Shown: one piece after another, positions 5,266-59,371 of the stretch
Layout: the number at the start of each line of letters is the position of its first letter
How positions within the stretch are numbered: position 1 is the first letter of the stretch
DNA from: Formosa sp. Hel1_33_131
GTDB lineage: Bacteria; Bacteroidota; Bacteroidia; Flavobacteriales; Flavobacteriaceae
Reading direction: 5' to 3'
Assembly (NCBI GenBank): GCA_949499105.1
Contig: CATEFX010000028.1
Location: 1-64,000 of the forward strand
Length of the DNA: 64,000 nt
The notes under the pieces: generated by a model
The model's database searches: none
Told to the model about the DNA's origin: nothing
What the model saw: only the letters and a program-made list of their open reading frames with translations
Translations under genes and position numbers: made by a program

Positions 5266-7191
5266 ATGCAGTTTTTACACCCCGAATTTTTTTATGCCCT
5301 TCCCGCACTGCTCATCCCTGTTTTAATTCATTTATTTCAGCTCAGACGCTTTAAAGTACAAGCATTTACAAACGTTGCCTTATTAGAAAAAATACGATTA
5401 CAAACTCGAAAAAGTTCGCAATTAAAAAAATGGCTGATTCTTATAGTACGACTCCTCGCAATTGGGTGTATTATTTTGGCATTTAGTCAACCCTTTTTAT
5501 CCAATCAAACGGCTCAAAAAAACAGCTCTGAAACGGTTATTTATTTAGACAACTCTTTTAGCATGCAAGCACTAGGCCCTAATGGCTCCCTACTGACTCG
5601 AGCGGTTCAGGATGTAATTAGCGGATTTGATCAACTCGAAAAAATAAGTGTTTTCACCAATGATCGAAGTTATAAATCAATCGCCATTAATGCGTTAAAA
5701 ACCGAACTACTGTCATTAGATTATAGTCAAAATCAATTGGATTTAAACCGTTTAATTTTAAAAGGAAAGACCTTCTTTTCAGATGCCAAGACCAGTTCTA
5801 AAAAACTTATTTTAGTGTCTGATTTTCAACAACATGAAAATACGATTCTGTCAGAAACTGACACCACCGTTCAAGTGTTATTAGTGCCTTTAAAACCCAT
5901 AAACACGGCCAATAATTATATTGATGACGTTCGTTTAGAACCCAGTTTAAATGCCAACTACACATTAAGTGTTGTTGGGAACACCACTTCGGAGACGTCC
6001 GATAGTATTCCGGTCACCTTATATCAAGATACAAAGGTCGTAGGGAAATCAATTTTAGTGAAAGCAAAAAATTTCACAAGCTCATTTGTACTTACAAATA
6101 CAGACGGATTTAAAGGGAAGTTATCGATCGACGATACACAAATACTGTATGATGACGACTTCTATTTTAACATCCCAAGAACTGAAAAAATTGCGGTCTT
6201 AGCCATCAACACTAATTCCAGCGCTCAATTTTTAGAAAAACTATATTCTAAAGAGGAGTTTTTATTTAATAACCAAAATCTCAACACGTTAGATTATGGT
6301 TTAATTAAAACGCAAAATCTAATTATTTTAAATGGAATAAAACAGATTTCAATTGCCTTAAAAAACAGTCTAACCGAATTCATGAATACGGGGGGTACTG
6401 TCTTAATGATTCCGAATAAAAATGGAAACTTATCTTCTTATAATAAGCTGCTTTCTACACAAACAAAACACCAACTTAAACCAATTAAAACGCAGGAAAA
6501 ACGCATCACTAACATTGCGTTTAACCATCCTATTTTAAAAAATGTTTTTGAAGAAAAAATATCTAATTTTCAATATCCATCCGTTCAGTATTATTTTCCA
6601 CTGTCAAAACCAACGCCTGGAATTTTATCGTTTGAAGATCAAAAGCCCTTTTTAGTTCAATTTAAGTCGTTATTCGTGTTTACGTCCGCAGTGGAATCTG
6701 ACGGATCTAACTTTGTAAATTCGCCCTTAGTGGTCCCAACTCTCTATAATATTGGGCGATCTAGTTTAAAAAGCCCGCCATTACAGTATTGGATAGGGGC
6801 AGAAAATACGTTTGATCTTAAGGTAAACTTGCAACGCGATCGCATTCTAAAACTGGGTCATAAAGAATCTCAATTTATACCTTTACAAACAAATTTTAAT
6901 ACCAAAGTGAGCATCACTACCAAAGAAAACCCAAGCGAACCTGGGCATTATGCTGTTCTAAAAAATAAGGACACATTAACCGCTGTTAGTTATAATTACA
7001 ACCGGAAAGAAAGCCAACTTCGCTATTATGATCTCACCCAAATGAAAGGCGTTTCCATAGAAAAATCGCTAAACGACACACTTAATACTATAAAAACTGA
7101 GTCGAATGTGACGTGGTTATGGAAATGGTTTGTTATTTTTGCGGTAATATTATTAGCTTTTGAAATGCTCATCTTAAACTATTTTAAATGA
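5266..7191 (+). CDS. BatA domain-containing membrane protein
   Basis: A 641-residue protein starting with the aerotolerance-type BatA N-terminal segment MQFLHPEFFYALPALLIPVL and LFQLRRFKVQAFTNVALLE. Two N-terminal membrane helices (about 5-25 and 58-78) and one at the C-terminus (about 615-637) enclose a large periplasmic region with a VWA-like beginning (YLDNSFSMQA at about 94). In flavobacteria this gene commonly precedes the dihydroorotase gene, as here, with an ATGA overlap. Its molecular role is unknown. Membrane topology and the BatA segment are seen; involvement in stress tolerance is only inferred from the family name. Confidence 0.82.
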   Translation: MQFLHPEFFYALPALLIPVLIHLFQLRRFKVQAFTNVALLEKIRLQTRKSSQLKKWLILIVRLLAIGCIILAFSQPFLSNQTAQKNSSETVIYLDNSFSMQALGPNGSLLTRAVQDVISGFDQLEKISVFTNDRSYKSIAINALKTELLSLDYSQNQLDLNRLILKGKTFFSDAKTSSKKLILVSDFQQHENTILSETDTTVQVLLVPLKPINTANNYIDDVRLEPSLNANYTLSVVGNTTSETSDSIPVTLYQDTKVVGKSILVKAKNFTSSFVLTNTDGFKGKLSIDDTQILYDDDFYFNIPRTEKIAVLAINTNSSAQFLEKLYSKEEFLFNNQNLNTLDYGLIKTQNLIILNGIKQISIALKNSLTEFMNTGGTVLMIPNKNGNLSSYNKLLSTQTKHQLKPIKTQEKRITNIAFNHPILKNVFEEKISNFQYPSVQYYFPLSKPTPGILSFEDQKPFLVQFKSLFVFTSAVESDGSNFVNSPLVVPTLYNIGRSSLKSPPLQYWIGAENTFDLKVNLQRDRILKLGHKESQFIPLQTNFNTKVSITTKENPSEPGHYAVLKNKDTLTAVSYNYNRKESQLRYYDLTQMKGVSIEKSLNDTLNTIKTESNVTWLWKWFVIFAVILLAFEMLILNYFK

Positions 7192-13143: not shown

Positions 13144-13483
13144 CTCCTGAAGTTTTTTTTAGTGGTTTTCAGTCGATCTTTTTTATTTATTTTAAAACGC
13201 AACTAATACGTTAACAGCTATTTATGTGATTTATTTGAACTGTTTTTTTTGGAAGTTTAGAAAATAAGTTATACGTTTGAGTGAATAAGACCCCAAGTCT
13301 AAATCTTTGTAAGCAATTTAACCGAAGTTGAGATATTATTTTAGTGAATTATCTGTAAAGATTAGGGAAAGAGTGTCACAATACACGCCAATTTGGGATG
13401 TATTGTGACACTCGACACCAAATATAAAGGAAATAAATACCACTAGTGGTTTATATACACTAGTTGTGTGTCATTAAGAAAGA
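13144..13483. other. Intergenic region with a dispersed repeat, boundary of accessory DNA
   Basis: No gene is visible here. The right half (13284-13466) is a copy of the dispersed hairpin repeat also found at 20.3 kb. The left part is AT-rich with T runs. It separates the core gene nth from a lone hypothetical gene and probably marks an insertion boundary. Confidence 0.6.
13284..13466 (+). repeat. Dispersed hairpin repeat, copy 1
   Basis: About 180 nt closely matching 20315-20500. Its centre is a perfect 14-bp inverted repeat (AGTGTCACAATACA at 13372-13385 and its complement at 13399-13412, 13-nt spacer). It ends with a CCACTAGTGG palindrome and an ACTAGTTG box. It stops 17 nt before the ATG of the hypothetical gene at 13484. 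Confidence 0.8.
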
Positions 13484-14113
13484 ATGTTAGAAACGATAAA
13501 AAATATCTTCAAAAAAAGAAAAGGAGCATTTTTCAACTCGACAGATTATGAGTTGAATAATTTCTTTTGTGGATTTGGAAAATGTAAGATTGAAAACGAT
13601 AAAATAACTATCTCGGATTATAAATTCAAACCTTCTAAGGCATATCCAAAAATAACAATAAGCAAAGAACAAATAACTTCAATTACGATTGATTCAAATC
13701 CACCACAAATCAATTATGAAAATGAATGGATTTTTGTTTCGGCTGAACTTAAAGATGAACTTGAAAAATTTATTAATAGAAATAACATACTAAAGACTGA
13801 AAAGAATTGGAATTGGGATAGTATATTAGACCCATTCCTTGACACAGAATTTTCTGAAGAAGAACAAGAGAGCACTCTAAATAAACTTGAAGAAAACGGA
13901 ATAAAAAGAAATGAAACGCTAGAAATTAGAGGGAAAGTTTCTAAACAAATGTATAAATATAATTTTGACACAATGCTTTGGGATTGGTGCAGTTTAGGAT
14001 TAGCTGATGTACTTCAAGCAATGAGAGTTAAATTAACAGATGAAGAATTTAAAGACTTTTATAAATATGCTATGAAAATTGAAAATAAAAACGCCACACA
14101 ACACGGTGTATAA
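13484..14113 (+). CDS. Hypothetical accessory protein (209 aa)
   Basis: A 209-residue soluble, charged protein rich in Lys, Asn, Glu and Ile, with no signal peptide or recognised domain. The N-terminal half has short strands (SKAYPKITISKEQITSITID) resembling a small PH-like or beta barrel fold; the C-terminal half is helical. Its last codons (TQHGV) and stop lie inside an attC-like palindrome, and its start lies 17 nt after a dispersed repeat, so the gene looks like a mobile single-gene cassette. Codon use is more AT-rich than in the flanking core genes. Function unknown. Confidence 0.6.
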   Translation: MLETIKNIFKKRKGAFFNSTDYELNNFFCGFGKCKIENDKITISDYKFKPSKAYPKITISKEQITSITIDSNPPQINYENEWIFVSAELKDELEKFINRNNILKTEKNWNWDSILDPFLDTEFSEEEQESTLNKLEENGIKRNETLEIRGKVSKQMYKYNFDTMLWDWCSLGLADVLQAMRVKLTDEEFKDFYKYAMKIENKNATQHGV

Positions 14114-14156
14114 TGCATACCCTGCGGGATACGCACCATACACTTAACGTTATGTG
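14095..14156. repeat. attC-like imperfect palindrome at the 3' end of the hypothetical gene
   Basis: A 62-nt imperfect inverted repeat. The outer arms are CACACAACACGGTGTA and TACACTTAACGTTATGTG, the inner arms AATGCATACC and GGATACGCACC, with a CTGC loop. The outer boxes carry the AAC and GTT core bases of integron attC sites, but ACACAAC and GTTATGT do not match the full RYYYAAC/GTTRRRY consensus. The stop codon of the preceding gene is inside it. No integrase gene is in the window. Confidence 0.45.
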
Positions 14157-14196
14157 CAAGCTCAGTAAAACTAAGATTTAATACAAACGATTAATT

Positions 14197-16404
14197 ATGA
14201 AACTTAAAATATTCCTAGAAATTATCATTATATCTCTATTTGCAATTCGTGCACAAGCACAACCTGATAAAACTGAGAAGTATTCTAATACGTCACTCAG
14301 CTTTGAAACTCGAACAGCAGATTTAGTTTTTCGAATGACATTGGATGAAAAAATCTCTCAATTAGGAAATAGAGCACCTGCCATTCCGCGTCTAGGTATT
14401 CTTGAATATGACTGGTGGAATGAATCTTTACATGGTGTTGCTCGTGCAGGAATTGCAACTGTATTTCCTCAGGCTATTGGTATGGCAGCTACTTTTGATA
14501 CAGGTATGATGAAACAAGTAGCGGATATTATCAGCGATGAAGCTCGTGCTAAACACCACGAATTTCAACGTAACAAAGATTATTCTAGATATACTGGTTT
14601 AACATTTTGGTCTCCAAATATAAATATTTTTAGGGATCCTCGTTGGGGACGTGGACATGAAACCTATGGTGAAGATCCTTACCTTACTGGACAAATGGGT
14701 ATGCAATTTGTAAAAGGGTTACAAGGAGATGACTCTAAATACCTGAAAGTTGTAGCCACTGCAAAGCATTTTGCAGTACATAATGGCCCAGAACCTAGTA
14801 GACATACTTTTAATGCTGTACCAAACACGCGCGATCTATGGGAAACCTATTTACCCGCATTTGAAAATTTAATGGTAGATGCTAAAGCATATTCAATAAT
14901 GAGTGCGTATAATCGTGTTGATGGAGAATCTTCAAGTGCGAGTTGGATGTTATTAGAAGATATACTTCGTAAACAATGGAATTTTGATGGTTATGTGGTT
15001 TCAGATTGTGGAGCAATACGAGATATTTATAAATTTCATGAAATTGTTAATAGCTTCGAAGAAGCTGCAGCAATAGGAGTCCGAAGAGGGTGTGATCTTA
15101 ACTGTGGCGGTATATATCAAAGGTCTTTGAAAAAAGCAGTTAAATTAGGTTTAATAGATGAAGGTGAAATAGATCTTTCTGTGAGTAGATTGATGTTAGC
15201 AAAAATGAAACTAGGTATGTTCGATCCTACAGAAATAGTTCCTTATGCTCAAATTCCTTTTGAAAAAGTAGATTGTAAAGATCATGATGAAATGGCTTTG
15301 AAGATGGCAAGAAAATCAATGACTTTACTAAAAAATGATGGTATCTTACCTTTAGACAGGAGTAAAATCAAGAAAATAGTTGTTATTGGACCAAACGCTG
15401 ATAATATTAGAGCTTTACGCGCTAATTATAATGGAACTGCTTCTAACCCTGTAACAGTTATTAATGGAATAATTAAGTTTGTGGGTTCAGATATAGAAGT
15501 TATTTTTCACAAAGGGCCTCCTATAGCTAAAGATGAAAATAATAAATTTACATCCCTTTCTGAAAATGCATTAGCAGATGTTAAAACAGCTGATGTAGCA
15601 ATCTATGTTGGTGGTTTAGATGCTTATTGGGAAGGTGAAGAGAAGAAGAAGAGAAAGCCCGTTGAAGGGTTTTTAAGTGGTGATCGCACTAAAATTGAAT
15701 TACCTGAAGTTCAGCTAAATGCTTTAGAAGCAATGAATAAAACAGGGACACCGGTAGTTTTTGTAATGTTGTCTGGAAGTGCTATTGCACTAAATGGCTT
15801 GGAAAAGGAACTTAAAGCTGTTTTAGCTGCCTGGTACCCAGGTCAGCGTGGAGGAGATGCTGTTGCTGATGTTTTGTTCGGGAATTACAATCCAGCAGGT
15901 CGATTACCAGTAACCTTTTATTCTTCTACAGATGAATTACCCGAATTTGAAGATTACAATATGCGTGCAGGGAAAGGATTTACCTATCGTTACTATACAG
16001 GAGAGGCACTATATCCTTTTGGACATGGTCTAAGTTATACTAAATTTGAATACTCTGATTTGAAAATAAATAAAACCACAATAAATCATAATGATGAAAT
16101 TAAAGTGTCTGTAAAACTTAAAAACATAGGGAAACTAGACGGAGAAGAAGTTGTACAACTTTACATTAAGGATGTGAAGTCCGATAAATGGATGGCTATA
16201 AAACAACTTCGAAAATTCGATCGAATAGCATTGAAAAAAGGAGAAGAAAAAACGATTAAATTTAAGCTTGAAGCAAACGAAGATCTTCGTTATTACGATT
16301 CTAAAAAACGTAGCTATATGGTTGAAAGTGGTGATTTTGAAATTCAAATAGGAGCTTCAAGTGAAGATATTCGATTAAGAGGAATAGTTAGAGTTGAAAA
16401 ATAG
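14197..16404 (+). CDS. Glycoside hydrolase family 3, beta-xylosidase/beta-glucosidase type
   Basis: A 735-residue exported enzyme with a signal peptide to about residue 21 (ending AQAQ). The GH3 N-terminal domain shows YDWWNESLHGVAR at about 70 and the paired KHF and nucleophile motif GYVVSDCGAIRDI with Asp near residue 271. The GH3 C-terminal domain runs from about 370 to 590 and a fibronectin-III-like domain covers about 625-725. The WWNESLHG motif is typical of the xylosidase branch. It releases terminal beta-linked sugars from oligosaccharides in the periplasm. It stands alone, 40 nt after the attC-like element, and shares a glycan theme with the GH99-like and GH2 genes. Confidence 0.88.
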   Translation: MKLKIFLEIIIISLFAIRAQAQPDKTEKYSNTSLSFETRTADLVFRMTLDEKISQLGNRAPAIPRLGILEYDWWNESLHGVARAGIATVFPQAIGMAATFDTGMMKQVADIISDEARAKHHEFQRNKDYSRYTGLTFWSPNINIFRDPRWGRGHETYGEDPYLTGQMGMQFVKGLQGDDSKYLKVVATAKHFAVHNGPEPSRHTFNAVPNTRDLWETYLPAFENLMVDAKAYSIMSAYNRVDGESSSASWMLLEDILRKQWNFDGYVVSDCGAIRDIYKFHEIVNSFEEAAAIGVRRGCDLNCGGIYQRSLKKAVKLGLIDEGEIDLSVSRLMLAKMKLGMFDPTEIVPYAQIPFEKVDCKDHDEMALKMARKSMTLLKNDGILPLDRSKIKKIVVIGPNADNIRALRANYNGTASNPVTVINGIIKFVGSDIEVIFHKGPPIAKDENNKFTSLSENALADVKTADVAIYVGGLDAYWEGEEKKKRKPVEGFLSGDRTKIELPEVQLNALEAMNKTGTPVVFVMLSGSAIALNGLEKELKAVLAAWYPGQRGGDAVADVLFGNYNPAGRLPVTFYSSTDELPEFEDYNMRAGKGFTYRYYTGEALYPFGHGLSYTKFEYSDLKINKTTINHNDEIKVSVKLKNIGKLDGEEVVQLYIKDVKSDKWMAIKQLRKFDRIALKKGEEKTIKFKLEANEDLRYYDSKKRSYMVESGDFEIQIGASSEDIRLRGIVRVEK

Positions 16405-17039
16405 AACCATTATCATTAATAGCCAGCAGGTAACAAAGAACTGAGCAAAAAAATAACTCTTTTCTTGATAAATTTTAGACACTAGTATGCGAGGCCCCAA
16501 GCTAGTGCGAGCCTCTTTTCTCGTGCCCAGCAAGGGAAGAAAACGTGAAAATAAATTTATGAGTAGAAATTATATTAAGATAACAAAAGTTTGAATTTGG
16601 TTAAAATACAAGCGGGACGCTTGCGCCAGCGTGGAGATTATTTGAAATAACCTTAACTCTTTTGCCTTAAAAGCGCACTTCAGCGTGGAAGCCTCTGTAT
16701 TTTATACATTTTCTTTGGCCATTATTTAATTGTATTGAAATTCAAATATCCTATACGAAAAGATTCATACGGCAGCGGAGTTGGAACGCTAAAAGTTTTA
16801 GATTTTAGTTTTTTTTCTTAAAATACCCTCTATACGGCACCCGAGTCCGTTTTTTAAAATCAGATTTTTGGGGATTGGTCATAAAATAGAATTTGGACTT
16901 CACGGTTTTTTTCATAAAGCCTTTACAGAAATATTTCGCCTTTGCTTGTTACTCAACACGGATTGCTCCAAAGTTAATGTGCTATTTAATTATTATCTTT
17001 GAAATATAAACCAATTAAAAATAACTTTTAAAAAATAAG
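16405..17039. other. Gene-free region with palindromic repeat fragments
   Basis: A 635-nt stretch without a convincing gene. It contains an inverted repeat CACTAG/CTAGTG (16480-16485 and 16502-16507), GC-rich clusters around 16610-16635 and 16665-16695, and GATTCATACGGCAGCGGAG near 16763, which resembles the ends of the repeats in the 55-59 kb island. A short open minus-strand frame near 16800-16960 has no start context and is not called. A -7 element for the next gene lies at its end. Confidence 0.5.
16994..17001 (+). promoter_or_regulatory. -7 promoter element of the GH99-like gene
   Basis: TATCTTTG, an exact TAnnTTTG match, 71 nt before the preferred ATG at 17073 and 38 nt before the upstream ATG at 17040. 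Confidence 0.55.
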
Positions 17040-17072
17040 ATGATAAAAATCATATTAGTCGTAACGAATATT

Positions 17073-19994
17073 ATGAAAACACTATTTATAATATTTACAA
17101 TTTCCATTGCTATTTTCCTACCACACACTCTTTCTTCACAAAACAGAGCGCCTTCGTTGTATTTAAATTATCAAGATGAAGGACAAGGGGATATCATTAT
17201 CAATACTTTGAGAGTACAATCACCGTCTCCAGTATATACTTATTACTGTGGACTGCTTTGGAACAGCGGCCAAGATGCTGGCGGGTATTGTGGTATGCAA
17301 GAACATCCCAATGGAAGAAATTTCATCTACTCGCTTTGGGACCCTATTAGTTCGACTGATCCGATCACTGCCGAATACACTCATCCTGACACAGATATAG
17401 CAAACTTTGGAGGCGAAGGGACAGGATTAAGGTCAATGAATTTTGGCATTGGTTGGGAAACAAACCAATGGTATTCACTTGTTTCACGAGCTTGGAGTAC
17501 AAATGATACTTCTACATTATTTGGTTATTGGATTTATGACCAGAGTAGCAACATGTGGCACCACCTTGTAACCATGAATTACCCTGTTTCTGATCTAAAA
17601 TTCAATACAAAGACGAGTTCATTTATAGAGGATTGGCTCGGAAATGGTTCTAGTGCCAGAACGGTTCAGCATAAAAATGGTTGGAAAAGGAAAACATCAG
17701 ATGCTAGTTGGCTTCCTTTTGAAGAAAGTTATTTTGACAGAGTTTTTCCAGATGCCGGTACTGTAAATTATATTGAGAATTATGATGGTGGAGCAATTGA
17801 TGACGAATATTATTTCATGACAAGTGGTGGCACAACAACTCCTGAAACTAATGAAGACGATGTAACTCTCAATCTAACATACGATACAACTAGTCCTGGA
17901 TTTGAAACAGGAGAATTTAACAATTTGACATTAGTTGTAGATAATAACAATTTATTAGTGAATTGGGATGTGATCGATTCCAAATCCCCACAATTTTCTT
18001 ATCATCTGAAAATTTATGACAACGTTGAACTATCCGGAAGTTCAATTATTTCAATTGACAAAATTAAGCCGCATTTAAGAAATGATATAATAGACATAAG
18101 TAATTTGTCAGATAATAGTGAATACTTTGTGCAATTCTACATCACTGACATATTTGATAATGTATCTGTTAATGAGGTTAAAAGTATCCAAACTGCTTTG
18201 TCTCAAGACGGTGAAATATTCGATAAACCTGTTTATATGCATTATATGCCTTGGTTTGATTCTCCTGACTATAATAACAATTGGGGAATTCATTGGAAAA
18301 TGGCTAATAAGAATCCTGATGTAATAATTGATGAAATTACTGGAAAGAGAGAGATTGCTTCTCATTATTATCCTCTAATCGGACCTTATGACAGTCAAGA
18401 TCCAGATGTTATTGAATATCATCTTTTACTAATGAAATATAGTGGAATAGATGGTGTTTTAATCAACTGGTATGGAAAAGTAGGGACTAATGGAGATATT
18501 GACGTATTACTAGAAAATTCTAATGCCATTGTAAATGCATCAGATGCACTTAATATGGATTTTAGCGTTATTATGGAAGATAGGTTTGTTGGAAATGAAA
18601 ACAACTTAAATCCTGTTGATTATGTTCACATAAACATAGAATACCTTAAGAATAATTATTTTACAAAAAATAATTTTATAAGAACAAACACTGGAAAACC
18701 TCTTTTTGGCATATTTGGGCCTATAGAAATTTTTGGTGAATCTGATTGGAATTACGCCTTAACAGCTGCAGGGGAAGAGGTTATATTTCTTCCGTTATAT
18801 TGGTCAATAAACAAAGTAGGCGCAGGCGCAAGTGGGGGTTATGATTGGGTTTTGGAAAATGGAATCTCTGCTAATAATTCATTTTATCAATCTACGGCAC
18901 CTTCTCTAGATTTTGCAATGGGCTGTGCCTATCCAGGTTTCAAAGATTTTTATGCCGAAGGTGCCTGGGGGGATAATCTTTTTTATCTAGATCACAATGA
19001 CGGAGAATTATTAAATCAAACTCTCGACTTGGCAATAGAAAACAAAGCCACGGTAGATGCGCTCCAGTTAGTTACGTGGAACGACTTTGGAGAGGGAACG
19101 ATGTTTGAACCCACTTATGAATTTGGATTTAAAATGTTAACGAATCTACAAGCAAAATTAGGGGTTCCTTATTCTGAATACGAACTCCAACAAATCTATC
19201 GTTTATTTAAGTTGAGGAAAACGCATTCAAATAATCAAAGTATTCAAAATATATTAAACCAATCCAGAGATTACTTTGTAAACTATCAGACGAGCGATGC
19301 AATAGCTCTTCTGGATGATATAGAAGGTATAAACGATGAAGAGTTATATTATATAAAAAATAGATTCAATAACAGTTATTTATATCAAGATGGAGAGATC
19401 GTTAAATACAGTTTAGAAACAAATAATGACACATTCAAATGGAAATTGGTACTCGCAGGAAATGGATATTACTATCTAGAAAATGCATTTTCTGGAGACA
19501 AAATGCATATAGAAAATCAAACTAGTTCATTGGAATGTACATCAATAGCCTTAAATTCATTAAGTTCGATTTGGGAAAAAAGAACCGTTAACGGAACACA
19601 TAGCAGGCTTCTAAATATGTCTACTTCAAACCTATTCATAAATATTGAAAATGATTTGGGCTACGCTGAGTATAGCTCAATAAATTCAAGTTGGGAAAGT
19701 GCTCAATGGACATTAGAAGAAGCACCAAACATTCTAAGCTTGTATGAAATAGCTGTGAAAAATGTATCAATATTTCCAAACCCTACAAATGATATTGTAA
19801 CAATTAAAGGCCTTAATAATATTTCTAATTTAACCGTTTATGATGTGCAAGGAAAACAAATAAAAATAGAGGATATAATAACCACATTTAACAATCTAAA
19901 ATTTAGTATTAAGAATTTTAAAAGTGGTGTTTATTTTGTTAAAATTGAAAATAATTTAGGAACAACTACATTGAAATTGATTGTAGAATATTAA
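17073..19994 (+). CDS. Secreted DUF3472 - GH71/99-like protein with T9SS sorting domain
   Basis: About 973 residues from the ATG at 17073, where the signal peptide MKTLFIIFTISIAIFL begins; an upstream in-frame ATG at 17040 would add 11 residues and is less likely. Three parts are visible. A DUF3472-like domain covers about residues 40-230 (RSMNFGIGWETNQWYS, VSRAWSTNDTSTLFGYWIYD). A GH71/99-like catalytic domain covers about 385-720 (KPVYMHYMPWFDSPD, GIDGVLINWYG, VTWNDFGEGTMFEP). A T9SS type A domain sits at the C-terminus (VSIFPNPTNDIVTIKG). GH99 enzymes cleave alpha-mannosides internally, so mannan or a related glycan is a plausible target. It is probably released or surface-attached by the type IX system. 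Confidence 0.83.
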   Translation: MKTLFIIFTISIAIFLPHTLSSQNRAPSLYLNYQDEGQGDIIINTLRVQSPSPVYTYYCGLLWNSGQDAGGYCGMQEHPNGRNFIYSLWDPISSTDPITAEYTHPDTDIANFGGEGTGLRSMNFGIGWETNQWYSLVSRAWSTNDTSTLFGYWIYDQSSNMWHHLVTMNYPVSDLKFNTKTSSFIEDWLGNGSSARTVQHKNGWKRKTSDASWLPFEESYFDRVFPDAGTVNYIENYDGGAIDDEYYFMTSGGTTTPETNEDDVTLNLTYDTTSPGFETGEFNNLTLVVDNNNLLVNWDVIDSKSPQFSYHLKIYDNVELSGSSIISIDKIKPHLRNDIIDISNLSDNSEYFVQFYITDIFDNVSVNEVKSIQTALSQDGEIFDKPVYMHYMPWFDSPDYNNNWGIHWKMANKNPDVIIDEITGKREIASHYYPLIGPYDSQDPDVIEYHLLLMKYSGIDGVLINWYGKVGTNGDIDVLLENSNAIVNASDALNMDFSVIMEDRFVGNENNLNPVDYVHINIEYLKNNYFTKNNFIRTNTGKPLFGIFGPIEIFGESDWNYALTAAGEEVIFLPLYWSINKVGAGASGGYDWVLENGISANNSFYQSTAPSLDFAMGCAYPGFKDFYAEGAWGDNLFYLDHNDGELLNQTLDLAIENKATVDALQLVTWNDFGEGTMFEPTYEFGFKMLTNLQAKLGVPYSEYELQQIYRLFKLRKTHSNNQSIQNILNQSRDYFVNYQTSDAIALLDDIEGINDEELYYIKNRFNNSYLYQDGEIVKYSLETNNDTFKWKLVLAGNGYYYLENAFSGDKMHIENQTSSLECTSIALNSLSSIWEKRTVNGTHSRLLNMSTSNLFINIENDLGYAEYSSINSSWESAQWTLEEAPNILSLYEIAVKNVSIFPNPTNDIVTIKGLNNISNLTVYDVQGKQIKIEDIITTFNNLKFSIKNFKSGVYFVKIENNLGTTTLKLIVEY

Positions 19995-20260
19995 AATCAC
20001 TTCAAAACATATTTAGACGATTTAAACCATTAAACATAAAAAGGGTTCTTTAAGCGAAAAAGGAAGTGTTTAAAATCCTTCCCAAAATAGTTCGACTTTT
20101 GAGCCTCTTTGCCGCCACGAAGCGAGACCCGCTGCTCGAAGTCTCTGACTTTGAGCCACGTATTTAATCTTTTTTGATACCCCGCTGCCAGTGCCAGTCT
20201 CTTCTGCTCGGCCTGTATGAAAAATAAAAAGTACGCGTAAACACGCATAAAAATTATAGG

Positions 20261-20500
20261 GTTAAAATCACATAACTCTTTTGATGTATGTGATTTTTTT
20301 ATACATTTAGATCAGATAAAGACCCCCGAGTCAAAAACTTCAAAAGCGATTTAACCAAAGTTAAGCTATTATTTTATTTGAATTATCTGTAAAACTTGGA
20401 GAAAGAGTGTCACAATACATGCCGATTTGGGATGTATTGTGACACTCGACACAAAATATAAAGGAAATAAATACCACTAGTGGCTTATATATACTAGTTG
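20261..20500 (+). repeat. Dispersed hairpin repeat, copy 2 (longest)
   Basis: The right part (20315-20500) matches copy 1 at 13284-13466, including the perfect 14-bp inverted repeat (20406-20419 and 20433-20446) and the CCACTAGTGG box. The left part (about 20262-20332) matches copy 3 at 31679-31750. The copy thus links the two others as one family. Confidence 0.8.
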
Positions 20501-20621
20501 CCCACAAGCGAAAAAAAAGCCAACCGCACATTCAAGCACATTTTATTTTGCTCGTACCTCACAAAATAAAAAGAGCTTTCACTTCCCTACCCACTCCAAG
20601 AATAATATTCGACATAGAATA

Positions 20622-20629
20622 TATATTTG
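20622..20629 (+). promoter_or_regulatory. -7 promoter element of the abiEi-like gene
   Basis: TATATTTG, an exact TAnnTTTG match, 17 nt before the ATG at 20647. Confidence 0.55.
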
Positions 20630-20646
20630 TCCCAAATAAGTAAAAA

Positions 20647-21240
20647 ATGACTAAATCAGTTCAAACTAGAATTGAAAACGAGATAAAATCAATGAAAAGA
20701 GGGAGTATTCTATTCCCATCTAACTTTGATGATCTAGGAAATGTTGAAGTTGTGAAAAAATCATTATTAAGACTTGAAAACAAAAAGTTCTTAGTAAGAC
20801 TAGCTCATGGAATATATTTATACCCAAAACAAGACAAACTTTTAGGGATTTTATATCCTACAATACAAGAAATAGCCCTTGCAATTGCTGAACGAGATAA
20901 AGCACGAATTATCCCAACAGGAACAACAGCTCTTAATAAATTAGGATTATCAACTCAAATTCCAATGAATGTTGTTTTCTTAACTGACGGAACTCCAAGA
21001 AGTATAATCGTTGGTAAAAGAACCGTAAAGTTCAAGCGAACATCTCCAAAAAACTTAGCTGTAAAAGGAAAAATTACAAGTTTAGTTATTCAAGCTCTTA
21101 AAGAAATTGGAAAGGACAATGTAACAGCAGTCCAATTAGAAAAAATTAAAATACACCTTGAAAAAGAAAAACAAGAAATTATAAAAAATGATGCTAAACT
21201 AGCTCCTGTTTGGATCTCAAAAATCATGAAGAATAATTAA
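20647..21240 (+). CDS. AbiEi-type antitoxin (DUF6088 family)
   Basis: A 197-residue protein of the type IV toxin-antitoxin class. The N-terminal part is a winged-helix-like segment (RGSILFPSNFDDLGNVEVVK, then RLENKKFLVRLAHGIYLYP). The middle is the conserved IPTGTTALNKLGLSTQIP of the DUF6088/AbiEi family. Such proteins bind their own promoter and counter the AbiEii nucleotidyltransferase. The gene ends 2 nt before the ATG of the frameshifted toxin gene, the usual order. It looks intact, so an antitoxin without a working toxin may remain. Confidence 0.82.
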   Translation: MTKSVQTRIENEIKSMKRGSILFPSNFDDLGNVEVVKKSLLRLENKKFLVRLAHGIYLYPKQDKLLGILYPTIQEIALAIAERDKARIIPTGTTALNKLGLSTQIPMNVVFLTDGTPRSIIVGKRTVKFKRTSPKNLAVKGKITSLVIQALKEIGKDNVTAVQLEKIKIHLEKEKQEIIKNDAKLAPVWISKIMKNN

Positions 21241-21242
21241 AT

Positions 21243-22261
21243 ATGAAAGCGTTTATAAAACTTGACAAAAAAGATAAACTGAACATATTAATCAAGTCAG
21301 TGAAAAAACTGGGTTTCCATCTTCTGCAGTTGAAAAAGATTGGTGGGTAACTTTATCATTGAATATTATATTTTCATTGTCATATTCAAAACATATTGTT
21401 TTTAAAGGAGGAACATCTTTGAGTAAAGCATGGAATTTAATAGAGCGTTTTTCAGAAGATATTGACTTGGTAATTGACAGAAAACATTTAGGTTTTGAAG
21501 GTCAATTGTGTAAAACTCAAATTAAAAAATTACGCAAAGTATCCTGTTCCTATATTGGGAATGAGTTCTATAATGACATCAATGATGCTTTAATTAAACG
21601 AGGTGTTCAAGATTATGAATTAGGTGTTCAAGATTATGAATTAGGTGTTCAAGAAACAAAAGACACAGACACCGATCCCCTAGTTATTGAATTACGATAT
21701 AAATCTTTAACAGAAACATCTGACTATTTAAGACCCCGAGTATTGATAGAAGTTGGCGCACGTTCCTTAATGGAACCTGTAGAAAATAAAGCCATTATTT
21801 CAATGGTTTCTGAGGTGTTTAGAGAACTTCCCTTTGCTGAAACAGAAATAATAATACCTGTTGTCTCTCCTAAACGAACCTTTTTGGAGAAGATATTCCT
21901 ATTACATGAGGAATTCCAAAAGGACACTAAGTTTATAAGAGTAGAAAGAATGAGTCGTCATTTGTATGATTTAGAAAAACTAATGGATACAATTCACGGT
22001 ACAGGTGCTTTGAAAGATATTGAATTATACGATACAATTATAGAACATAGAAAGAATTTAAATGCAATAAGAGGAATTGACTACGCGAACCATAGCCCTC
22101 AATTAATTAGCATTCTACCACCAGAAAAAACAATTAAAGAATGGGAGAAAGATTATAAAACCATGCAAGAAAGTATGTTTTATGGAACTACTTTATCTTT
22201 CAACAAATTAATGGAACGCATAGCCGAATTAAACGCTAGAATTAAAACAATTTCATTATGA
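21243..22261 (+). pseudogene. AbiEii/AbiGii-type nucleotidyltransferase toxin, frameshifted
   Basis: Reading starts at ATG 21243 as MKAFIKLDKKDKLNI and then needs a -1 shift near 21285-21290. The next frame continues NQVSEKTGFPSSAVEKDWWV and on to the stop at 22261 without further breaks. One missing base in the first 50 nt therefore disables the gene unless translation restarts downstream, for example at a TTG at 21359. The nucleotidyltransferase core is intact: KGGTSLSKAW and SEDIDLVID with the GG[ST] and DxD elements. Full length would be about 339 residues, normal for the family. A 21-bp tandem duplication lies inside it (21602-21653). Confidence 0.85.
21602..21653 (+). repeat. 21-bp tandem repeat within the AbiEii-type gene
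   Basis: Two and a half perfect copies of a 21-bp unit encode GVQDYELGVQDYELGVQ. The unit is in frame, so it adds seven residues per copy without breaking the protein. Perfect identity suggests a recent slippage event. Confidence 0.85.
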
Positions 22262-31590: not shown

Positions 31591-35113
<3,523 letters not shown>

Positions 35114-55060: not shown

Positions 55061-55237
55061 ATGGGAGCAGTAGAGTTAAGACATAAATTAATTGAAAAGT
55101 TTAGTCAGTTCTTACAAGACGATTCAAAACGATTGACTTTGGACGTTGTTTTTGACTCGCTAAACTCAATGGATACTCCATCACTAGTTTCAGAAGAACA
55201 TTACAAGATCGTTGAAGAACGTCGTCGCTCCCGCTAA
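55061..55237 (+). pseudogene. 5' part of an antitoxin-like gene, cut by a palindromic element
   Basis: A 58-codon frame reads GAVELRHKLIEKFSQFLQDD and ends VSEEHYKIVEERRRSR. The pattern VSEEHYKIVEERR is what I recall from small RelB-like antitoxins of Bacteroidota, which then continue with a GE-x-W-x-E-V-K tail. Here the last codons (RSR stop) come from the inverted-repeat element that begins at 55226. The expected tail is found on the other side of the element at 55415. The gene is therefore split and probably non-functional. Confidence 0.65.
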
Positions 55238-55388
55238 GTTGTACTTAGTGGACGTAAACTAGCTAAAAACGCTTTTTACTTTCACATATACTATACTTTC
55301 TACCAATCTTTGACGTTACCGCGCTATAGCGTGGCGGGAGCGAGACTTGCCAATCTCTGACGCCACTAAGTACAACTTAGCGGGAGCG
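55226..55388. repeat. Inverted-repeat (MITE/REP-like) element, copy 1
   Basis: A 163-nt element bounded by perfect 26-bp inverted repeats (55226-55251 and 55363-55388), each beginning CGCTCCCGCTAAGTTGTACT when read inward. It contains an inner CGCTATAGCGTGGCGGGAGCG at 55322-55342. GAACGT occurs just outside both ends (55217-55222 and 55408-55413), a possible target duplication. No transposase is encoded. Confidence 0.85.
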
Positions 55389-55492: not shown

Positions 55493-55604
55493 GTTAAGTT
55501 TATATTGGGCTTAACTAAAATAAGAAAATAGAAACAAAAACCTCTAAATTAAATATCAAAATTTATGATTATTTAATTTACCACACGAAAGATTCGTGCG
55601 GCAG
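55486..55604 (+). repeat. Repeat A, copy 1
   Basis: About 119 nt matching 59058-59174 with scattered changes. It starts ATTTTAGGTTAAGTTTATAT and ends with ACACGAAAGATTCGTGCGGCAG-type sequence containing a short CGAAAGATTCG hairpin. It lies between two gene stumps. Confidence 0.85.
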
Positions 55605-55763
55605 TGGGGGGGTTTATTTGGTATCTTTACAATATGGTTAATACAAGGTGGATTAATTATTCCTATTGCTTCATCAAATACTATGCTAGGCTATTGTTTA
55701 TGTGCTTTGGCAGGACATAATGAAAGAATTATTCCAGACTATTTTAGCTCAAAAAAAGAATGA
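55605..55763 (+). pseudogene. C-terminal stump of a membrane protein
   Basis: Directly after repeat A an open frame reads GIFTIWLIQGGLIIPIASSN then TMLGYCLCALAGHNERIIPD and ends YFSSKKE. It contains one complete hydrophobic segment and looks like the tail of an integral membrane protein. No start codon or N-terminal part is present and I do not recognise the family. Its stop overlaps the phhB start (ATGA). Confidence 0.5.
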
Positions 55764-56305: not shown

Positions 56306-56409
56306 CCGCTAAGTTGTACTTAGTGGCCGTAAACTAGCTGAAAATATCTTTTATTTTTACCATGACCTACCAATCTTTGACGTTACCACGCTATAGCGTG
56401 GCGGGAGCG
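56306..56409 (+). repeat. Inverted-repeat element, copy 2 (partial)
   Basis: Shares CCGCTAAGTTGTACTTAGTG, GTAAACTAGCT, ACCAATCTTTGACGTTACC and CGCTATAGCGTGGCGGGAGC with copy 1 at 55231-55342, but lacks the right 26-bp arm. It separates two gene stumps on opposite strands. Confidence 0.8.
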
Positions 56410-56534: not shown

Positions 56535-56563
56535 CCGCCACTAGTTACAAACTAGCGGGAGCG
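56535..56563. repeat. Short palindromic repeat related to the inverted-repeat element
   Basis: CCGCCACTAGTTACAAACTA followed by GCGGGAGCG. CTAGTT and AACTAG form a hairpin with an ACA loop, and the GCGGGAGCG end is shared with copies 1 and 2. Confidence 0.65.
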
Positions 56564-59059: not shown

Positions 59060-59174
59060 TTTAGGTTAAGTTTATATTGGGCTTCTCAAAATAAGAAAAT
59101 AAAAACAAAATCTATAAATTAAATGTCAAAATCTATGACTATTTAATTTACCACACGAAAGATTCGTGCGGCAG
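59058..59174 (+). repeat. Repeat A, copy 2
   Basis: About 117 nt matching 55486-55604. It begins exactly at the RHS start codon and ends in the GATTCGTGCGGCAG motif, followed by CCGGGGACAG. The two copies are 3.5 kb apart in the same orientation, so recombination between them would delete phhB, the stumps and the RHS locus. Confidence 0.85.
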
Positions 59175-59371
59175 CCGGGGACAGATTAGCGTAAAAGAGT
59201 CGTAGAGATTGCACGGTTCCACCAATTAAGACTGTTTTTGGGAGATTTAAATGATTCTATACGCAAAATAGTCGTGTTTTCATCTTCAATCCTAGTGCAC
59301 GAACTACAAGTCCACGCTATCAGATTGATGAATATATATTTCTATTTTAGATCCTATAAAATTGAAAAAAG
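59060..59371. other. Right edge of the island
   Basis: Contains repeat A copy 2, then about 150 nt with an open + strand frame (KRVVEIARFHQLRLFLGDLN and on) without a start or a recognised family. AAGAGTCGTAGAG at about 59195 also occurs in the antitoxin 3' stump near 55464. The right 22-bp direct repeat closes the region. Confidence 0.5.
59324..59345 (+). repeat. Right 22-bp direct repeat flanking the island
   Basis: Identical to 54829-54850. It lies 27 nt from the stop of the glycosyltransferase gene, so the island occupies the former mnmA-glycosyltransferase gap. Confidence 0.75.

Follow-up and report, generated by a model that had tools for sequence, protein, structure and literature searches.

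The window, which is the whole 64,000-nucleotide stretch of DNA analysed here, contains a repeat that carries a perfect hairpin and lies shortly upstream of accessory genes. The question raised by this locus is what kind of element the repeat is. The original prediction offered a non-coding RNA, an insertion hotspot or a mobile end. The answer developed below is that each full repeat is an integron-like attachment platform without an integrase, a reading to which a probability of about 0.85 is given.

Anatomy of the repeat

A full copy consists of a 5' module (promoter-like motif plus leader), a 15-16-bp hairpin and an attI-like tail (Table 1). The leaders of the full copies carry GACCCCAAGTC or a near variant. 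In the tails a palindrome is built around CCACTAGTGG, and TATATACACTAGTT or a close variant comes next. The hairpin is perfect in both window copies, as originally described; its stem, given then as 14 bp, measures 15 bp (copy 1) or 16 bp (copy 2).

Table 1. Features of the repeat copies and of the sequences behind them in the window
Feature	Position	Strand	Basis or remark
Copy 1, 5' module	13244..13370	+	Sequence; similar module upstream of integrase remnants L123, L125, L137
Copy 1, -33-like TTTG	13248-13251	+	Sequence; motif also in relatives
Copy 1, -7-like TACGTTTG	13272-13279	+	Sequence
Copy 1, leader with GACCCCAAGTC	within 13244..13370	+	
Copy 1, perfect 15-bp hairpin	13371..13413 (arms 13371-13385, 13399-13413)	+	
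Copy 1, attI-like site, palindrome around CCACTAGTGG, end CACTA-GTT	13414..13465	+	Identity profile, homology ends
Copy 1, inferred crossover	after G13463	+	Identity profile; homology ends in G007, G010, G012
Inferred cassette 1, 686 bp	13464..14149	+	Junction-attC complementarity
Cassette 1 ORF, 209 aa, no family above cut-off	13484-14113	+	Family scans
Cassette 1 attC-like site: R'' GCCACACAAC, L boxes, R' GTTATGTGC	14093..14157	+	
Copy 2, 5' module including leader	20261..20404	+	
Copy 2, terminator-like palindrome	20264-20297	+	
Copy 2, promoter-like motif TACATTTA, one base off TAnnTTTG	within 20261..20404	+	
Copy 2, perfect 16-bp hairpin	20405..20447 (arms 20405-20420, 20432-20447)	+	
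Copy 2, attI-like site, end TACTA-GTT (GTT 20497-20499)	20448..20499	+	
Copy 2, inferred cassette	20498..22261	+	G009 homology; own attC not found
AbiEi	20647-21240	+	AbiE called by PADLOC
AbiEii	21359-22261	+	AbiE called by PADLOC
5' module only (terminator-like palindrome, promoter-like motif, leader)	31679..31773	+	

The partial copy reported at 31679 shares the 5' part of the repeat. Its hairpin is absent, and no recognised attI-like tail lies within 1.5 kb. Position 31951 (CTA-GTTAACACC) was considered as a possible attI remnant and rejected, the matching attC being absent. The proposed association with accessory genes is supported for the first two copies and not for the copy at 31679 and the GH2 gene. 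No integrase is found in the window, and both window platforms are integrase-less.

Distribution of the repeat

The repeat is real: the two window copies are 88% identical over about 180 bp (13284-13466 and 20319-20500; E 3e-59). The genome-wide copy search that had been proposed as a check returned a third full copy, on another contig of the same genome (G000:C45:28460-28647), together with many 5' modules. This genome is an incomplete assembly (87% complete). The 5' module alone gives 20 matches in it at E <= 0.001, the query counted in. Among 25 of the genome's own 5' modules, a tail-like pattern lies within 1.5 kb downstream in six (L054 being doubtful) and upstream in two, so that most of these modules have no demonstrated membership in a platform. 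Among 60 genomes searched, the repeat has full or partial matches in 16 of the 18 from the same genus and in none of the 42 others.

The suggestion of a non-coding RNA is not supported. Rfam gives no match in the window at the gathering threshold and three sub-threshold matches at nine loci of the same genome, all in the flanks, and the relatives keep the hairpin only in part. The 5' module was also considered as a separate regulatory RNA; this candidate was dropped as support was lacking.

One locus of the same genome (L140, contig C10) contains two attI-like sites, at 6717 and 7871, which form a platform tandem 1.15 kb apart with accessory ORFs behind each site. The window also contains other repeats. 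A second, unrelated family of GC-rich, palindromic, REP-like repeats of the CGCTCCCGCTAAGTTGTACTTAGTGG type is present at 55226-55251, 55363-55388, 56306-56360, 56367-56409 and 56536-56563. A 96-nt direct repeat (82%; 55515-55610 and 59085-59180) ends in the palindrome ACCACACGAAAGATTCGTGCGGCAG and has short matches in G010 and G012.

Probable insertion at a single position

In 29 platforms of the genus aligned on the GTT, mean pairwise identity is 0.72 over the 30 bases before the GTT versus 0.35 over the six bases after it. Further right it amounts to 0.53 at +9 to +16, in an AT-rich start common to cassettes, and to 0.34 beyond. Two of the 29 cores read GAT instead of GTT. The proposed insertion hotspot is supported and can be sharpened to one position, the GTT at the end of the repeat and not the hairpin.

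Copy 1 is preceded by nth, the gene for endonuclease III, which was detected in 14 of the 18 genus genomes. Reading by eye, the same platform is found behind nth in three other species, G007, G010 and G012. The place behind nth is occupied by a truncated platform in G003 (twice) and G009, by the 5' module only in G008, by an attI-like tail of another type in G002 and by an attC-like end in G001. In G004, G011, G014, G015 and G017 a platform was not seen by eye in the 420 bases after nth. Repeats of the CGCTCCCGCTAAGTTGTACTTAGTGG type are present behind the nth platform of G003 and G009 as well.

The homology with the window runs through nth and the platform and ends at 13465 in G007, at 13466 in G010 and at 13460 in G012; right of the nth platform, none of the three shows a further match to the copy 1 region. 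Different right sides at one orthologous nth platform are the trace expected from site-specific insertion of different cargo. The alignment of G007 to copy 2 continues for 32 nt past the GTT (80%), a likeness that appears to be that of a similar cassette start. The exact boundary, the anatomy and the different cargo at an orthologous platform can be read directly from the DNA. In G010 a second platform (L293, contig C101, about 5545-5819) lies about 4.4 kb behind the nth platform, and its similarity to window 13167-13440 (74%) extends beyond the 5' module on the upstream side, which suggests the duplication of a longer unit.

Cassettes and attC-like sites

An integron cassette begins with bases that are complementary to the R'' box of the attC at its far end. 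The attC sites themselves are described in terms of R and L boxes and of the use of their bottom strand. In the window, the junction GTTGTGTGTC (13463-13472) is complementary to GCCACACAAC (14093-14102) at 9 of 10 positions. The latter opens a hairpin that closes with GTTATGTGC at 14149-14157, in the order R''/L''/L'/R' and with an AAC...GTT core.

A strict attC finder proved too strict, with no hits in the window, 0-3 in shuffles and few in the loci, and a junction-based test was used instead. A looser finder gave 30 hits versus four in shuffled sequence, some of them chance hits or attI tails. The junction test asked for an attC-like site within 4 kb with at most one mismatch in 9. A site's own junction had such a match downstream at 14 of 35 genus sites, compared with a mean of 2.1 for the junctions of other sites; in 5000 permutations the highest count was 10. 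At the remaining 21 sites a matching attC was not found. In an earlier round 9 of 36 sites had passed, where 200 permutations gave 1.1 on average and 4 at most.

The sites were hand-picked from 51 pattern hits by keeping those with platform-like context. L132 was excluded for its short flank, and loci in which no tail hit was kept (L103, L116, L124 and L133, for example) were not used. L134 and site 3055 of L119 entered the first test only, and L135, which is outside the pattern hits, was added to the final one. The identity profile used 29 of the junction-test sites. The positive control of the test is weak, canonical integrons being recovered in part only: among three plasmid integrons one passed at 9 nt, one at 7 nt only and one failed, and none of nine canonical IntI loci passed, several of them with little flank.

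The attC-like site of the window recurs beyond the genus. Among 395 genomes drawn, nine matched, the own genome included, and the site is 81-90% identical to sites at eight loci in seven genomes of other genera. Seven of the eight alignments stop within 1 nt of the GTT, and one runs 8 nt on. In the two attC sites folded, the bottom strand folds better than the top (-12.8 vs -9.5 and -17.0 vs -14.6 kcal/mol). Behind copy 2, the AbiE module (20503-22259) has a counterpart in G009, a segment with 91% identity and with the junction again at the GTT. The module follows an attI-like site in the window and an attC-like end in G009; behind the window module, an attC was not found by junction match.

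Stretches of about 120-160 bp that resemble attC are roughly 75-92% identical across several genera of Bacteroidota (L111, L112, L119 and L125 against L192, L226, L221, L242, L217 and L174).

Cargo genes and their predicted expression

The largest ORF near the site is co-oriented with the platform at 34 of the 35 sites. A co-oriented ORF of at least 60 aa starts within 61 nt of the GTT at 25 of them, in one case from inside the core. Eleven of 20 cargo genes scanned outside the window have no Pfam match, and the others belong to families such as SieB, SLFN_AlbA_2, RDD, 2OG-Fe oxygenase, hydrolases and a tRNA synthetase. The 209-aa protein of cassette 1 gives a JmjN match below the cut-off.

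Leaders were recognised by script at 10 of the 35 sites. The motif TAnnTTTG is exact in seven of these ten, its fixed letters being kept while the two free letters vary, and the upstream TTTG is present in nine. The motif agrees with the Bacteroidetes promoter consensus quoted in a passage of PMC7366714. The predicted platform promoter could read the cassette genes.

The hairpin

The folds of the 146-147-nt stretches that contain the window hairpins have z values of -5.5 and -4.9, and none of 200 shuffles was as good. The claim that the arms are fully conserved applies to the two window copies only. Among the 29 platforms, nine hairpins are free of mismatches, three have one mismatch (the third own copy, on C45, among them) and 17 have two to four mismatches or no proper hairpin. 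Covariation had been suggested as a check. Across 28 platforms with 25 distinct sequences, the arms pair in 321 of 375 cells, above the whole-arm shuffle mean of 297.5 (one of 500 shuffles as high), and four central pairs vary with compensation. On the other hand, three of these four pairs are broken in 10 or 11 of the 25 sequences. The data argue for some structural constraint or for a repeated re-copying of one arm from the other, and they count against a strictly conserved RNA. The hairpin is placed between the position of the integrase and the attI-like site. A role as terminator is unlikely, as the window hairpin is not followed by a T run.

The tyrosine recombinase beside the attI-like sites

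Remnants of an integrase are located just upstream of the attI-like tail at four loci of the genus, as a broken gene in L125 and as the C-terminus only in L123, L137 and L138. A 5' module lies upstream of three of them (Table 1). G009, assembled in one contig and 99% complete, contains an intact integrase gene followed by an attI-like site, a cassette and an attC. The R'' of this attC matches the junction in 8 of 9 positions, whereas the integrase-locus test described next required an exact match. Elsewhere in G009 six platform matches reach into the tail. Another intact integrase gene is found in G005, and no recognised 5' module lies upstream of either intact gene. Of 296 order genomes, sampled evenly from a larger group, 65 contain relatives of the integrase at E <= 1e-60; at this threshold there is none in the own genome (87% complete).

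In a test of 23 integrase genes, 12 junctions at the 3' end have an exactly matching attC within about 5 kb, versus 1.2 with the junctions of other loci, 2 with the reverse complement and 0/0/0 with GTTs inside the gene. At the other 11 loci a matching attC was not found. These values come from a rerun that excluded the first 300 nt and covered 5 kb only. The version that kept the first 300 nt gave 12 of 23 for the own junctions, 2.6 for other loci and 12 for the reverse complement, a control inflated by the attI-like palindrome inside the stretch. Among the loci listed, a matching attC was present at 12 of 33 named Bacteroidota loci versus 0.84 expected and was not found at 21. The controls gave one match with GTTs inside the gene and none on the 5' side where the flank allowed. 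The 36 other listed loci gave one match on the 3' side, two inside the gene and two on the 5' side. In all, 69 of at least 80 loci were tested (33 + 36), the others having less than 800 nt of 3' flank, and the groups were taken from record titles. In both positive sets (12/23 and 12/33) the GTT is no more than 270 nt away from the gene's 3' end. Junction-positive loci include Zunongwangia mangrovi, Flavobacterium aciduliphilum and Winogradskyella ursingii, as well as isolates or MAGs of Cyclobacterium, Rufibacter and Pontibacter. The complementarity between junction and attC and the association with an integrase are likewise apparent at the sequence level.

The two integrases tested pass the cut-off of NF040815 (XerA-type / integron integrase) and score 210 and 206.5 bits with TIGR02249, under its cut-off of 265. 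Compared with the IntI4 structure 2A3V, 23 aa instead of 66 aa separate the aligned stretches, and the IntI-specific insertion is missing in all 19 family proteins aligned, out of 22 extracted. Two motifs lie mostly 57-59 aa apart at the named Bacteroidota loci (63 in L230), versus 100-101 aa in nine IntI-type proteins. The IntI-specific additional domain is therefore missing from these integrases, and the reported need for this domain in integron activity counts against an integron reading.

A tree was built from 86 rows, with the 22 extracted proteins among them and 16 of the 80 loci left aside; its root is not fixed. The IntI-type proteins cluster together in it (support 100/100), separate from the Bacteroidota proteins. 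The Bacteroidota integrases group with some rows from other phyla (support 82/91). The fold model of an integrase (pLDDT 84.6) has XerA structures as best Foldseek hits, with 2A3V close behind.

In a MAG labelled Spirochaetota, L234 has at about 7129 a short-type integrase and a junction-matched attC with boxes free of mismatches. A related integrase is found in an Undinarchaeales MAG (L238). G173 has numerous similar copies of a different XerA/IntI-like recombinase (about 300 aa) at several places.

Proposed mechanism and alternative explanations

In the mechanism proposed for the platform, a Bacteroidetes-type promoter and leader would be read through the hairpin into the attI-like site. A tyrosine recombinase would insert circular cassettes by recombining attI with a folded attC, with the cut at G^TT. 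The cassette gene would then lie some tens of bases downstream of the site, in sense orientation and readable from the platform promoter. The window copies would have lost their integrase, most simply by deletion; as they have none, present movement would need an integrase in trans, or else the movement is past. Recombination, the activity of the promoter, the deletion of the integrase, its action in trans, any role of the hairpin and the dispersal of the platforms are what we infer from the anatomy.

Could a canonical IntI encoded elsewhere in these genomes perform the recombination, with the short tyrosine recombinase a bystander? The anatomy of the attC and attI sites is canonical, a standard IntI works on such sites, and most of the genus genomes are incomplete assemblies. 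This explanation is nevertheless improbable: TIGR02249 is over its cut-off in none of 18 genomes with the short integrase, its remains or platforms and in none of an overlapping set of 19 genomes scored by stretch, and the gene with the attI-like site at its 3' end is that of the short integrase.

The conserved promoter-like motif and leader, together with a stable hairpin that shows some compensatory change, would also suit a cis-regulatory RNA or leader of the accessory genes, the boundary then being the end of the leader. A leader leaves the integrase remnants unexplained, however, and the genes downstream are not related to one another and are in many cases delimited by attC-like sites that complement the junction. 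With no Rfam match and a hairpin that is mismatched in many relatives, such an RNA is very unlikely. Equally unlikely is a MITE or REP-like element whose accessory neighbours are there by chance or target preference. It would agree with a multi-copy, dispersed and genus-restricted repeat without an enzyme of its own, and the spread of the copies is something that the platform reading does not explain. Against it, the right edge of the platform often shows complementarity to an attC-like site that follows the gene, and orthologous copies hold their position and swap their cargo.

The attachment platform is thus the preferred reading of the repeat. On balance, a wider proposal is also favoured, namely that Bacteroidota may have an integron lineage of their own, with XerA-like recombinases that lack the I2-helix domain and an integrase gene that points toward attI. 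In the genus of the window, this lineage would have produced many scattered, promoter-bearing attI platforms that capture cassettes with an integrase supplied in trans.

Significance and comparison with known systems

Bacteroidetes integrons are described as rare. For this phylum PMC9024848 mentions earlier In0 elements only and one complete integron, in Salinibacter ruber, and it terms the absence of integrons from certain clades intriguing. Bacteroidetes are counted among the phyla with intI genes or integrons in parts of PMC2426708, PMC8618304 and PMC9668308. According to a section of PMC9176274, at least one screening script retains only integrases with the IntI-specific domain. No account of the Bacteroidota system was recognised in the titles and abstract openings of the open-licence literature, subscription papers and preprints being outside this scope. 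If the reading as a separate lineage is true, screens that demand the domain would overlook these integrases. If the system is active, the domain would be dispensable for cassette capture, and the apparent rarity in Bacteroidetes would be partly an effect of definition. An active system would also make a cassette pool of Flavobacteriales (AbiE, SieB-like, Schlafen-like and many unknown genes) reachable by a simple sequence rule. It would permit a direct test of the protein features needed to recombine a folded attC.

The closest likeness is to the sedentary chromosomal integrons. Shared features are the single G^TT insertion point beside a tyrosine recombinase gene, the R''/L''/L'/R' attC-type hairpins, the left junction complementary to R'' and the co-oriented accessory genes, many without a known family. 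In contrast, the integrase lacks the IntI-specific insertion, groups apart from IntI and points toward attI, and there are several integrase-less platforms per genome. In Treponema integrons, intI is transcribed toward attI in the same direction as the cassettes, as stated in a part of PMC3607928. The integrase described here is also directed toward attI; in the tree, however, the Treponema row (L272) falls with IntI, and its motif spacing is the 100 aa of IntI.

Cassette remains without a nearby integrase recall CALIN and SALIN, from which the present system differs in that its dispersed part is an attI-like platform with a promoter-like motif and not attC sites only. SALIN are attC sites without integrase. 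The CALIN are defined as attC without integrase in a passage of PMC9024848. The XerA-type recombinases (NF040815, PDB 5hxy) are the closest solved structure by sequence and by fold. The integrases considered here differ from them by an extra N-terminal stretch of about 95 aa and by their link to attI- and attC-like sites.
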